DNA of 26,198 nt from a virus, in the IMG/VR virus record IMGVR_UViG_3300025687_004399, positions 1-26,198 of that record, one strand, 5' to 3'. This document shows, piece after piece, positions 13,501-21,552 of the stretch (the first letter of the stretch is position 1; every line of letters begins with the position of its first letter). The translations under genes were made by a program, and so were the position numbers. A model generated the notes under the pieces. It did no database searches. It worked only from the letters and a program-made list of their open reading frames with translations, and had not been told where the DNA came from.

Positions 13501-13786
13501 AGACCTTAATCGGCTCCGATATTGTGTGCTCGATAGTCTGCGCGTTCGGCACCTTGCCTTCAGTCCGCTCTGCGATAAACTGCACGGCCCAGCTGTTGCC
13601 CTTCAGCGCGTACTGGTAGACGGAGCGCATCACAGCGTCAAGCTTGGTCATGGTCACGCCGCCAGCCTTGACCTCTTCAAGCCCGATCTTTTCGAGAATG
13701 TGCTCGATCCGGTAGCGCTTGCGCTTGCGCCCCGGCGAGCCGCTGTTTCCAACAGCGAAGGTTCCGTCTGGGTTCCGCTCAGGCAT
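13460..13786 (-). CDS. terS: Terminase small subunit-like protein (108 aa)
   Basis: The N-terminus (MPERNPDGTFAVGNSGSPGR) and the following basic KRKRYR are typical of the DUF5681-type proteins found just upstream of large terminases. The rest is helical, with KLDAVMRSVYQYALKGN and AVQFIAERTEGKVPNAQTIEH. It is expected to recognise viral DNA and start packaging. The ATG overlaps the methyltransferase stop (ATGCCTGA) and has GAAGG six bases upstream. The 41-bp overlap with the large terminase suggests coupled translation. Confidence 0.75.
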   Translation of the reverse strand: MPERNPDGTFAVGNSGSPGRKRKRYRIEHILEKIGLEEVKAGGVTMTKLDAVMRSVYQYALKGNSWAVQFIAERTEGKVPNAQTIEHTISEPIKVFDFVNTTDPDAAE

Positions 13787-15005
13787 GGACGGCCTTCTTT
13801 CCAGTGAGATTCTCCCATCGCTTGACGATCACGTCGCAGTACTGCGGGCTGATCTCCATGCCGTAGCACTTGCGGCCCAGTTGCTCGGCGGCGATCAGCG
13901 TGGTACCTGAGCCGAGGAATGGGTCGTAAACTTTGTCGCCTTTTGATCCAAAGTCGCACATAGCCCGTGCCGCCAAATCTACTGGGAAGGTGGCTTTGTG
14001 CTCCTCTTGTTGCTTTGGCCGAGGGATTTCCCACTTTGCCCATCGCGGTTCATTCTCACCTTGAGTCGTCGTATACTTTGCCCCTTTGGACAGCACAAAC
14101 ACGAGTTCCCAATTTCGTGAAAGAATGCCTTTCGATGCAGAGGGGAATCCGGCTCCTTTGTCCCAGCAAATTGTTTCTTTTACGGAAAGCCCGTGAGTTC
14201 CTGCGAACATCGTTCTTCCATACCCTGACCGGCAGTTAGCCGTATACATAACATTCCACACAACAGGAGAATAATCAGATTCCAAGTAAGACGATGTGAG
14301 AGCAAGCACGTTGTTGCAAAACTCTACCCATTCATCCTCTGACCTGTCGTCGCACTGGTGGTTGTAGAACTTTTTTGTTTTGCCGTTGTAGTCTGTTTTG
14401 TATCCTCCGTCCTTGCTGTTATACGGCGGCGACGTGAAGCACAGGTCTGCCTTCGCCCCGTCCATCAGCCGCTCAACATCCTCTGCCTTCGTCGAGTCGC
14501 CGCAAAGCAGCCGATGCTCGCCAAGCAGCCACAGGTCGCCCGGCTTTGTGATCGGCTCAGCAGGCGGCTCCGGCACCTCGTCCTCTGTGATGTCACGATC
14601 GCTGTTCCCGGCAAGCCCTTCAATCTCGCCAACATCAAAGCCAGTCAAGTCAAGGTCGAAGCCATCGTCCGCCAGGTCGCCAAGCTCAAGATTGAGCAGC
14701 TCGTCATCCCATCCGGCATTGAGCGCCAGCTTGTTGTCCGCAATCACATAAGCCCTCGCCTGTGTGTCGGTCAGGTGCGATAGGTACACAGCCGGCACGG
14801 TGTCGAGGCCGAGCTTCCGCGCAGCCATCACGCGCCCATGACCCGCAATGATCGTATTGTCATCCTTCAGCAAGACAGGATTGACAAAGCCGAATTCACG
14901 GATGCTTGCCGCTATCTGGGCAACCTGCTCGTCCGTGTGTGTGCGTGCGTTCTTCGCGTACGGTATCAGGTCTTTAGTCGAAACTTGGCTGATCTCGTCA
15001 ATCAT
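13779..15005 (-). CDS. ParB-like domain fused to a DNA (N4/N6) methyltransferase (408 aa)
   Basis: Residues 1-130 form a ParB/Srx-like domain with IIAGHGRVMAARKLG (52-66). Residues ~150-408 form an adenine/cytosine-N methyltransferase with motif IV TSPPYN (191-196) and the AdoMet-binding DPFLGSGTT (361-369). The SPPY comes before the FxGxG, the beta-class order. Both active-site motifs are intact. It probably protects phage DNA from host restriction, or marks it for packaging, given its place just before the terminase; the target site cannot be read from the sequence. The stretch 14040-14400 has GC of about 43-50% against ~60% on both sides, suggesting that the catalytic and target-recognition part was exchanged. 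It is the first gene of the late unit. Confidence 0.92.
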   Translation of the reverse strand: MIDEISQVSTKDLIPYAKNARTHTDEQVAQIAASIREFGFVNPVLLKDDNTIIAGHGRVMAARKLGLDTVPAVYLSHLTDTQARAYVIADNKLALNAGWDDELLNLELGDLADDGFDLDLTGFDVGEIEGLAGNSDRDITEDEVPEPPAEPITKPGDLWLLGEHRLLCGDSTKAEDVERLMDGAKADLCFTSPPYNSKDGGYKTDYNGKTKKFYNHQCDDRSEDEWVEFCNNVLALTSSYLESDYSPVVWNVMYTANCRSGYGRTMFAGTHGLSVKETICWDKGAGFPSASKGILSRNWELVFVLSKGAKYTTTQGENEPRWAKWEIPRPKQQEEHKATFPVDLAARAMCDFGSKGDKVYDPFLGSGTTLIAAEQLGRKCYGMEISPQYCDVIVKRWENLTGKKAVHA

Positions 15006-15084: not shown

Positions 15085-15519
15085 TCAGAACGGCAAGTCT
15101 GCGTTCGTTTCAATGCCCTGTGGTGCTTCCGGCTTCGCAGGCTGCTCAGGATACCGGAGCCTGTCCGCGAGCCGCTCTACGTCGCTGTCAGGGGTATTTA
15201 CTGGCATTCCAGCCTTCGGGGCCAGCAGGAGCAGGCCGTATGCGTTCGCGTTCAGCTTCCAGCTCTCGCGCTTCTGGCCGTCCTTTTCCCATTTGTCGCA
15301 CTGCATCCGGCCCTTGACGGCCACGCCAGCACCTTTGACGAGCGCGGCTTTTTGGTTCTCATACGGCTCCCAAAGCACGACGCGGAACCAGTCAGTCTCC
15401 TTGTCCTTGCCACGGCTGACGGCAACGCTAAACTCGGCGATCTGCTTGCTCCCTGCCTGCCGGAACTCGGCGTCGCTTCCGATGTGTCCTGCGATCCTGA
15501 TTTCATTCTCGTACGGCAT
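15085..15519 (-). CDS. ssb: Single-stranded DNA-binding protein (144 aa)
   Basis: Residues 1-110 follow the SSB OB-fold pattern: EIRIAGHIGSDAEFRQ, FSVAVSRGKDKETDWFRVV, VKGAGVAVKGRMQ and ESWKLNANAYGLLLL. A flexible Pro-rich linker leads to the acidic tip NADLPF, the short motif SSBs use to contact replication and repair partners. It should coat single-stranded phage DNA during replication and recombination, working with the ERF protein and exonuclease encoded further upstream in the same unit. The ribosome site is AGGAGG seven bases before the ATG. It is the last gene of the early unit. Confidence 0.93.
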   Translation of the reverse strand: MPYENEIRIAGHIGSDAEFRQAGSKQIAEFSVAVSRGKDKETDWFRVVLWEPYENQKAALVKGAGVAVKGRMQCDKWEKDGQKRESWKLNANAYGLLLLAPKAGMPVNTPDSDVERLADRLRYPEQPAKPEAPQGIETNADLPF

Positions 15520-18110: not shown

Positions 18111-18821
18111 TTAGAACGGCAGCGGGCCGTTGTCTCGTTCCGGCAGCTGTGTCCCTTCGTCCTGCCATCCGCCAGCATTCAGCCAGGTCGCCGGATATGG
18201 GATGTATTGCCCGTTCTCTCGGTGCCATTCAGGGTCTTTAGCCTGCTTGTTGACGGCCTCGATGATCTGCTCTTTGAGCTGCTTGCCGGGCCTCAGCTTT
18301 TTCCATGCCTTGAGTGCTGCTTCCTTCGAGCGCTTTTTGGGATATGCGCTCCAGAATTCGTCGAACCCTTCCGCGCTTTTCGCCTGCGAAAGCGCAAGAG
18401 AGTCTCCTCTTTCCTCTTTCCTCTTTCCTCTTTCCTCATTCAGAGCGTATTGGTACGCACCTTGGTTAGAAGCGCTTTCTACCAAGGTTATACTCGCTTC
18501 GCTCCTTGGTGGTAATTCGCTTGCTGCCTCGTTTGGGTGTGGGCGCTGGTGTTTCGTGAAGTTGTTGATTTCAAAGTACTTCACCCCATCAACCTCATAA
18601 TGGCAGAGGAACCCGGCCTTGGTCAAGGCAGAGAGCATTTTGGGAATATCGTAGTCTTCTGCTGGGAAGATCGCCATTTTGATCTTGATCGGTCGATCTT
18701 CAAAACGCCCTTCGCGGTCAGCAAAACACCACAGCCCGATGAATAACAGCCTGCAGGCAGGATCAATCTGCACAAGGTTCTCGTTCAGAAAGAATCCCGG
18801 CTTGATGTTTCGCGCGCGCAT
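18111..18821 (-). CDS. Phage replication initiator/organizer protein (236 aa)
   Basis: The N-terminal ~105 residues (MRARNIKPGFFLNENLVQID to NNFTKHQRPHPNE) form the winged-helix domain common to many phage replisome organizers. After a low-complexity linker, the C-terminal part has FDEFWSAYPKKRSKEAALKA and YIPYPATWLNAGGWQDE, a motif widely found at the end of such proteins and thought to contact the helicase loading machinery. The linker is encoded by a heptanucleotide repeat (18406-18437) and lies beside a palindrome (18459-18488). That arrangement recalls lambda gene O, where the origin lies inside the gene. The zinc-motif protein follows after 10 bp. Confidence 0.85.
   Translation of the reverse strand: MRARNIKPGFFLNENLVQIDPACRLLFIGLWCFADREGRFEDRPIKIKMAIFPAEDYDIPKMLSALTKAGFLCHYEVDGVKYFEINNFTKHQRPHPNEAASELPPRSEASITLVESASNQGAYQYALNEERGKRKEERGDSLALSQAKSAEGFDEFWSAYPKKRSKEAALKAWKKLRPGKQLKEQIIEAVNKQAKDPEWHRENGQYIPYPATWLNAGGWQDEGTQLPERDNGPLPF
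18406..18437 (-). repeat. Tandem heptanucleotide repeat (GAGGAAA) in the initiator gene
   Basis: The plus strand has four consecutive CCTCTTT units plus a final CCTC, 32 bp in total. Read on the coding strand it is GAGGAAA repeated, giving the linker residues EERGKRKEERG. Loss or gain of one unit would shift the reading frame, while a change of three units would keep it. It may also serve as part of a replication origin together with the palindrome 22 bp away. Confidence 0.85.
18459..18488. repeat. Inverted repeat beside the heptamer array, with a third half-site
   Basis: ACCTTGGT (18459-18466) and ACCAAGGT (18481-18488) form an eight-bp inverted repeat, and with one bulged base a further AGAA/TTCT pairs inside it. 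A third CCTTGGT lies at 18504-18510. Together with the heptamer array these sites span about 105 bp within the linker of the initiator gene. This is a candidate origin; binding by the initiator is inference. Confidence 0.6.
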
Positions 18822-19521: not shown

Positions 19522-19819
19522 AGCGGATGTCCTCCAGCAGCCTCGCAAGCGCACGCGCCCAGCGGGCCTCCTGCTCCTGCTTTTGCATCATCCGGCTCTG
19601 CCATGCCTTGATCCGGCCTGAGTCTTCACCAGCCTGCCATGCCGTGTAAATCATTGCAGCTTCGCGCTCGGTCGAATATGAAAGCCCTTCGATCAGCCCG
19701 ATTCGCTCCCACTTGATCAGCTTCGCCCCTGCAAGCTGCCCATGTCGGGCAGCCTGCACTTCGATACCGTGCTCGGTGTTCGCGAGCCTGGTGTCTGGGT
19801 TGATTTTGTACGCTCTCAT
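19511..19819 (-). CDS. Unknown helical protein (102 aa)
   Basis: It is linked to the exonuclease gene by an ATGA overlap. The first ~45 residues (MRAYKINPDTRLANTEHGIE) look beta-rich. The rest is a charged helix with RMMQKQEQEARWARALARLL, possibly a coiled coil. No family was recognised. The direct coupling to the recombination genes suggests, but does not show, an accessory role. Confidence 0.7.
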   Translation of the reverse strand: MRAYKINPDTRLANTEHGIEVQAARHGQLAGAKLIKWERIGLIEGLSYSTEREAAMIYTAWQAGEDSGRIKAWQSRMMQKQEQEARWARALARLLEDIRYAN

Positions 19820-20433
19820 GCTATGCTCCTGATTTCCTGCTCATGCTTGTCGATCTCGTCGCAGAATGTGGGGAGATTATCGGCAAGCGCCTGCTGAACT
19901 TTAGCGTCCGGCAAGACTTCAATGATCAGCGGCGGCAGGCCGGGAAAGTAGGACATGAAATACCACTTGGGTGCGCCCGTCACGAACAAGCAGCCTTGCA
20001 CCTGCATGATGTACTCATCTGGGCACTTATCGCCAATCAGGTACTCCATGTGCTTTCGCATACCCGGGCACTTCAGTTCCAGCCCAGCTTCCAGCTTGTC
20101 GGAATAGATCAGCCCGTCAGGACTCGCGCCGATTCGCTCGTCATCGGTCAGGCAAAGCCCTACTTCCGTCACCGTGTGCCCTGTGATCAGCTGGAAGGCC
20201 TCGCGGGCTTCCGGCTCAAGTTCTGTCCCGCGTTCCATCGCATAGGTGGTCGGGATTTCCTCGGCTTGCCCAAGCAGCCGCTCGCCCACCAGCTGGCACA
20301 TATACCCATGAGCCTGTGTCGATAGCTTGCCCGTTTTCGGCGTGACGATCCTGCCAAATTGTGAAGCTGTGGGCCTTCCGGCACGATCCGCCAACCACTG
20401 TGCGCTTCCCTGTTCTGCATTGAGTGTCTTCAT
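19816..20433 (-). CDS. YqaJ-type exonuclease (205 aa)
   Basis: This is a lambda-exonuclease-like 5'-3' exonuclease. The family pattern is visible: WLADRAGRPTASQFGRIV at the start, ERGTELEPEARE in the middle, then the catalytic ASPDGLI and LELKCPG (D and E-x-K of the PD-(D/E)xK fold), followed by YIMQVQGCLFVTG. It should resect double-stranded ends and hand the single strand to the ERF protein encoded immediately upstream. The two genes overlap by ATGA, the common arrangement for phage recombination pairs. All catalytic positions look intact. Confidence 0.92.
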   Translation of the reverse strand: MKTLNAEQGSAQWLADRAGRPTASQFGRIVTPKTGKLSTQAHGYMCQLVGERLLGQAEEIPTTYAMERGTELEPEAREAFQLITGHTVTEVGLCLTDDERIGASPDGLIYSDKLEAGLELKCPGMRKHMEYLIGDKCPDEYIMQVQGCLFVTGAPKWYFMSYFPGLPPLIIEVLPDAKVQQALADNLPTFCDEIDKHEQEIRSIA

Positions 20434-21161
20434 GCTCCCATCTCCTTTGCGATTCTGCGCCGCTTAGCCGCCAGCGCCGCCTCTGCCTTTTGTACATCGC
20501 GCTCCGTCATGGCCGTGGCATCACAGCCCAGCCACCCGAAAAACGCGTCCTGGTCGATCTGTAGATCATCCACGCCCTTGATAATCCGCGCCACCGAGTC
20601 AGGATCTGCCCAGCGCTGCCCAGCAGCCACGCCGTCATCATCCTGATCGGTCGCGGCGAGTCCCGTCATGGCGAGCAGCGTGTACCGTTGCAGATAGGTC
20701 ACTGCCGAGCCGATCGCTTGGATTGCATTCTTGCTTCCGCTGTTGTCGGCAGGTGCTGAGAGGCTGGTGGACTCACTGTGCCCGAGCTCATGCGTAACCG
20801 TGCAGGTCACCGTCACTTGACCTCCAGCCTGATCTGTCCTCCAGCTGGCGGTCAGCCCGTGGTCGGACATTGCCGCGCTGATGGTGGCTGTAACATTCGC
20901 GAGCGTGGCGTGCTTGTACTGCGTGTTTCCGTACTTGACTTCGCGGTCTTTCCGCACCGTCGGCGGATGCGCCTTGAAGGCTGCCATCGCGGCGTGGTAG
21001 GCTTTCCGCGCCTCGTTGGCCTCCCAGCGCAAATGCATATCCATCAGGGCCGACATGGCCTCGACAGACCCACCCTGCTCAACAGCCAGCTTCAGTAGGT
21101 CGGCTGGTGTCGGGGCCGCTTGCGGCAGCCCCCCTTGTGTGATTGTGATTTCGTTGCTCAT
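20430..21161 (-). CDS. erf: ERF-family single-strand annealing protein (243 aa)
   Basis: The start at 21161 (MSNEITITQGGLPQAAPTPA) is chosen because a GAGGAAC-AGGAG site precedes it; the frame further up is a low-complexity run of Met and Thr codons that overlaps the acidic protein gene. Residues ~45-190 match the ERF pattern: AAMAAFKAHPPTVRKDREVK, KHATLANVTATISAAMSDHG, then GSAVTYLQRYTLLAMTGLA with DQDDDG. It should anneal complementary strands produced by the YqaJ exonuclease. The C-terminal end is basic and helical (AEAALAAKRRRIAKEMGA). Confidence 0.92.
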   Translation of the reverse strand: MSNEITITQGGLPQAAPTPADLLKLAVEQGGSVEAMSALMDMHLRWEANEARKAYHAAMAAFKAHPPTVRKDREVKYGNTQYKHATLANVTATISAAMSDHGLTASWRTDQAGGQVTVTCTVTHELGHSESTSLSAPADNSGSKNAIQAIGSAVTYLQRYTLLAMTGLAATDQDDDGVAAGQRWADPDSVARIIKGVDDLQIDQDAFFGWLGCDATAMTERDVQKAEAALAAKRRRIAKEMGA

Positions 21162-21177: not shown

Positions 21178-21348
21178 TTAGAACCAGTCATCATCATCAT
21201 CATAGTCATCATCATCGTCTGGCTGATCCGGCTGATCCGGCATGAATGGCGGCAGCAGCGCAGCAGCATCAGCAGCCTCGATCATTGCCTGAATCAGCGG
21301 GCTGGGCTTCCGGTCTTCCGGCTGGTGGTAGTGGATTGTCTGTGTCAT
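21178..21348 (-). CDS. Small very acidic protein with an SSB-like C-terminal tip (56 aa)
   Basis: This short frame starts at an ATG with GGAGG eight bases upstream, three bases after the previous stop, and ends 17 bases before the ERF start. The product begins MTQTIHYHQPEDRKPSPLIQ and ends DDDDDYDDDDDWF. A run of Asp ending in an aromatic residue is the hallmark of SSB-type tails and of gp2.5-like proteins, which recruit partner proteins. It might mimic such a tail or DNA itself. There is no recognisable folded domain. The gene is small but its spacing and ribosome site make it convincing. Confidence 0.72.
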   Translation of the reverse strand: MTQTIHYHQPEDRKPSPLIQAMIEAADAAALLPPFMPDQPDQPDDDDDYDDDDDWF

Positions 21349-21351
21349 CTG

Positions 21352-21552
21352 TCACGCCTCCTTTTTGGTCGAGCTGGAGAGAGAATCAAAATCGATAGAG
21401 CTGGAATCAATGGCAAGGATCAGCTCGCCTTCCTCGTCGATAATGATAAGAGTCCCAACTTCAGGGTGGGCCTTGAATACTGCTACAACATCAACGGCAG
21501 GTTGGCCGCAAAAGTGTTGGATGATCAGGTCCTTGTGTGCTGTCTGTGCCAT
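21352..21552 (-). CDS. Unknown small protein (66 aa)
   Basis: This is the first gene after the second early promoter, with AAGGAG seven bases before the ATG. The protein (MAQTAHKDLIIQHFCGQPAV) has a hydrophobic beta-like middle (VGTLIIIDEEGELILAI) and a Ser/Asp-rich end. No family was recognised. Its stop is three bases before the acidic protein start, so it heads a sub-operon with the acidic protein, ERF and exonuclease. Confidence 0.72.
   Translation of the reverse strand: MAQTAHKDLIIQHFCGQPAVDVVAVFKAHPEVGTLIIIDEEGELILAIDSSSIDFDSLSSSTKKEA

Follow-up and report, generated by a model that had tools for sequence, protein, structure and literature searches.

The window analysed here is a virus record of 26,198 bases in which the recombination genes, like all the genes identified, lie on the minus strand. 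Its recombination operon runs in the order 66-aa ORF, acidic ORF, ERF (PF04404) and YqaJ exonuclease (PF09588); coordinates are collected in Table 1. An earlier note on this DNA had placed the acidic ORF just before ERF and the exonuclease, and Pfam matches confirm both genes; it had also given the phage SSB a normal NADLPF end, which is indeed how that protein terminates. Elsewhere in the window a ParB-like nuclease domain is fused to a DNA methyltransferase (13779-15005, minus strand; PHROGs 498 and 620). Rfam gave no match on the window. The sole relative of the acidic protein in everything that we searched is encoded on the IMG/VR contig IMGVR_UViG_3300025687_005340, called L082 below.

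Table 1. Coordinates of the acidic gene, its parts and other genes of the window
Feature	Position	Strand	Evidence
56-aa acidic orphan protein	21178..21348	-	Translation; SD AAGGAGG before the start; homologue L082:5001-5180
Acidic C-terminal tail DDDDDYDDDDDWF	21181..21219	-	L082 has the acidic tract and the Trp but lacks the final Phe and stops elsewhere
Predicted helix, residues 17-30 (PLIQAMIEAADAAA)	21259..21300	-	AlphaFold2; identical in L082
66-aa upstream neighbour of the acidic gene	21352..21552	-	No family match in Pfam or PHROGs
ERF-family ssDNA-annealing protein, 243 aa	20430..21161	-	Pfam PF04404, E 1.3e-17; PHROG 155, E 2e-34
YqaJ/RecE-like exonuclease, likely ERF partner	19816..20433	-	Pfam PF09588, E 4e-27; PHROG 149
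Phage SSB, ordinary tip, C-terminal TNADLPF	15085..15519	-	PHROG 44, E 4e-24

The acidic ORF translates as MTQTIHYHQPEDRKPSPLIQAMIEAADAAALLPPFMPDQPDQPDDDDDYDDDDDWF, followed by a stop codon. As the earlier note had described it, the product is 56 residues long, and its end comprises ten Asp with a single Tyr among them and a final Trp-Phe. It has a computed pI of 4.05 and a charge of about -14, and the same values were obtained for the L082 homologue. Outside the Asp tract, none of the window's six frames contains a run of at least four Asp or Glu residues. One 12-residue stretch of the protein has ten Asp, whereas no stretch of that length exceeded six when the window was resampled 200 times with a first-order model; such a run lies well outside what chance would give. 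A strong Shine-Dalgarno (SD) site, aaaaaGGAGGcgtgacagATG, is found at the start of the ORF, and we infer that the ORF is translated in vivo. AlphaFold2, run on one chain with an alignment of two sequences and therefore weak, predicts one helix (pLDDT about 85) and gives the tail a pLDDT of 55-64; the tail is probably disordered.

The ERF start is most likely the ATG at 21161 (agaggaacaggagATG), 17 nt from the stop of the acidic ORF and preceded by its own agaggaacaggag. The longer ERF frame in the list of ORFs arises where the Asp codons, read in +1, become Met codons. A start at the ATG run within the Asp tract was rejected, as there is no SD there and a good one before 21161. The ERF frame is also open, with many ATGs, upstream of the likely start (21178-21269, minus strand), and likewise in L082.

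The relative in L082

Searches with tblastn in 50,697 phage records and 72,556 plasmids, and a search of about 85,000 bacterial and archaeal genomes (GTDB), found no relative of the 56-aa protein; such searches have little power with proteins that are very short and of low complexity, and they may leave out records very near the window. When IQAMIEA and the start of ERF, MSNEITITQGG, were searched as degenerate DNA patterns, the same L082 contig alone was recovered. A profile search against the PDB gave nothing meaningful. One Pfam match, to RunxI (E 0.079, below the cut-off), was dismissed as an artefact of composition.

The two proteins are 95% identical over residues 1-40, and residues 12-40 are the same in both. 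In the first 41 codons there are nine nucleotide differences, distributed 0/2/7 over codon positions 1/2/3 (binomial P about 0.008 for the third-position bias), with two amino-acid replacements. Because the differences concentrate at third codon positions, we take the ORF to be coding. The acidic tract has experienced in-frame indels and Asp/Tyr exchanges and is still acidic. In L082 the tract and the Trp are kept, and the frame runs on through WQIGDSDDE (end DDDDWQIGDSDDE) to a stop that overlaps the ERF start (ATGAGTAA). This distal stop reads as a sense codon in the window, hence the stop has moved in one lineage; two sequences without an outgroup do not give the direction.

Such variability raises the question of whether this small gene is merely recent or drifting, its Asp tract being a GAT microsatellite without selected function. 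The tract is indeed built of (GAT)3 and (GAT)4 with GAC, indels and a shifting stop position separate the members, and only two members were found in all. However, the strong SD, the third-position bias, the intact reading frame and the identity of residues 12-40 in two phages make drift improbable. It is rather unlikely, too, that the ORF serves mainly as a translational leader, delivering ribosomes to the ERF start while the peptide itself is of little account. The position of its stop, 17 nt before the ERF start in the window or overlapping it in L082, would suit a leader. But in both phages ERF is preceded by its own SD-like site, a leader does not need a polyacidic product, and the amino-acid sequence has been kept, the changes over the 41 codons being mostly at third positions. 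The acidic ORF is a genuine gene, its product acidic and its position linked to ERF, and it is kept in one relative without the WF end.

Linkage with ERF

In L082 the acidic gene lies upstream of the same ERF as in the window, and the next gene upstream differs: a 66-aa ORF in the window, a different 72-aa ORF in L082. The junction AAAAAGGAGGCGTGA, comprising the last codons of the 66-aa ORF and the SD of the acidic gene, is common to both. Since the linkage persists despite the exchanged neighbour, the SD, the acidic gene and ERF look as if they have been inherited as a block. The 72-aa ORF (L082:4780-5000) opens with MTQTIH and a leader similar to those of the acidic gene, suggesting that small genes may be exchanged via short homology at start sites.

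The earlier note had proposed looking for similar short ORFs next to ERF genes, and among 80 IMG/VR and 18 bacterial ERF loci screened, L082 alone has an acid-tailed small ORF in this place. The closest other ERF, in the locus L001, is 67% identical and has as its neighbour an unrelated 93-aa ORF with a 4-nt overlap; ERF is therefore not generally dependent on the acidic protein. The small genes that precede ERF show a marginal excess of acidity over other small genes (P 0.049, gene calls being heuristic).

The carboxy end and SSB tips

SSB tips act through the carboxylate of their terminal Phe. The earlier note had likened the end of the acidic protein to such a tip, and had suggested that it might recruit or titrate host proteins that bind SSB tails. 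On such a reading the free DDDDDWF carboxy end would dock in a pocket for SSB tails, on host or on phage proteins. The window copy does resemble the tips of SSBs (NADLPF in this phage, NDYPPF in HK620, DDDIPF in E. coli) in having acidic residues and then a free terminal Phe, and annealases do cooperate with SSB tails. SSBs, however, have an OB fold and a Pro before the Phe, whereas the 56-aa protein has Trp in that position, as against Pro in the phage's own NADLPF, and has no OB fold, being 56 residues long with no Pfam match and one short predicted helix. A hydrophobic-Pro-Phe carboxylate end is found in neither copy, the window protein ending in DWF and the L082 homologue in DSDDE. Of the conserved acidic-aromatic end that homologues might have been expected to share, the acidic half has held, residues just before the end being acidic in both proteins, and the aromatic end has not, as the only relative terminates WQIGDSDDE. 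With the terminal Phe missing from one of the two relatives, the end is poor evidence for SSB-tip mimicry. We regard such mimicry as disfavoured on the sequences compared, and very improbable; the SSB-like end, striking as it is, belongs to a single lineage.

DDDDWF also ends two unrelated viral proteins, which could be taken in favour of SSB-tip mimicry, but such ends are too rare for a class (five stretches in two families in IMG/VR; the reversed DDDDFW occurs once). One is a 663-aa viral protein (L085:3265-5256, minus strand) that looks like a primase-helicase on an unscanned reading and ends EEDDDDWF. The other is a separate family of 173-182 aa (L083, L084, L086 and L087), unrelated to the L085 protein, which ends DNPFNWDDDDWF and has the same acidic-WF end. 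In the window itself, a putative replication initiator (18111-18821, minus strand; PHROG 16167) ends PERDNGPLPF, SSB-tip-like and with the usual Pro-Phe.

Arf and other acidic helpers

In P22 the gene just before erf, with which it shares 4 nt, is arf; its product, 47 aa long with a computed pI of 4.05, is annotated as stimulating Erf recombination. The two are alike in several respects: both proteins are tiny (47 and 56 aa), their pI is equal, and both genes stand directly upstream of an ERF gene, near its start or overlapping it. The acidity of Arf, in contrast, is spread along the protein and is mostly due to Glu, without a poly-Asp tail. Neither the 56-aa protein nor its L082 homologue matches PF17585 or PHROG 2445, both of which P22 Arf matches, and BLASTP of the 56-aa protein against Arf gave nothing at E<=100. 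Judged by sequence, the 56-aa protein is not a member of the Arf family; judged by analogy, it fits the same role. The statement in the earlier note that there is no named family for it holds for sequence families (none was found in Pfam, PHROGs or PADLOC), but it overlooked P22 Arf, a named acidic protein of similar size in the same place.

How Arf works is unclear, but a protein so small and so acidic could be a DNA mimic, as a paper on RecBCD inhibition remarks (PMC9836394). T7 gp5.9 (residues 1-49 resolved, pI 4.0) inhibits RecBCD as a DNA mimic (PMC9836394). The 56-aa protein might likewise inhibit a host exonuclease (RecBCD or AddAB) or a defence nuclease, its Asp tail filling the DNA-binding channel and so preserving the ends of the phage DNA for ERF and YqaJ, like lambda Gam or gp5.9; DNA mimicry that blocks a nuclease was the other suggestion of the earlier note. 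Like these two it is small, highly acidic and found in a phage recombination context; it adjoins an annealase-exonuclease pair, as gam does in lambda, and the window ORFs that were scanned (those to the right of about 10,900) include no protein recognised as Gam or Abc. But Gam and gp5.9 fold into helical dimers with their charges set out on a rigid surface, while here the charge resides in a tail predicted to be disordered, and the 56-aa protein does not match their profiles. Inhibition of a nuclease is a possibility to be taken seriously, if a doubtful one.

The most likely reading, which we put forward tentatively, is that the 56-aa protein is a genuine member of the ERF-YqaJ operon that works like P22 Arf, as a polyanionic accessory protein whose charge would act on ERF or on a host nuclease. 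The short helix at residues 17-30 may be a binding helix, flanked by disordered segments and the polyanionic tail, and the tail would attach to a basic surface with which a protein of the pathway binds nucleic acid. Its target would most likely be ERF itself, at the positive C-terminus or the ssDNA groove, with a host nuclease as the second candidate. ERF comes first on two grounds: it is genetically linked, and it has a basic C-terminus (AAKRRRIAKEMGA), the counterpart in L001 being similar (AAKRRKAEKEMQG). Binding of the tail could keep ERF off unproductive nucleic acid or could aid its handover to SSB-coated DNA, and recombination might be affected. For Sak80alpha, a related annealase, it is the C-terminal domain that cooperates with the SSB tail (PMC11846896).

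In favour of an Arf-like role are the position upstream of ERF with an SD of its own, the linkage as a block, the acidity kept despite indels and the parallel with Arf. Against it are the lack of similarity to Arf, the L001 locus without such a neighbour, the marginal nature of the acidity trend, the reliance on two sequences and the net charge of the whole ERF, which is -6. An unlikely alternative would be a new family of phage proteins with polyaspartate tails, unrelated to Arf, Gam and gp5.9, in which a free-standing acidic tail would bind the phage annealase, or else the SSB-tail pocket of the annealase's partners, and regulate the handover between SSB and ERF.

If the Arf-like reading is true, an unrelated small acidic protein at the place of Arf in an environmental phage would be a sign that polyanionic helpers have been recruited to ERF systems time and again, and the 56-aa protein, a helix with an Asp tail, would be a minimal helper with which this idea could be tested. 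In HK620 the place of Arf is taken by an orphan that is unrelated to it (PMC5928155), so there is precedent for small proteins of different descent in this slot. We class the 56-aa protein as an orphan within a functional class that is already known.
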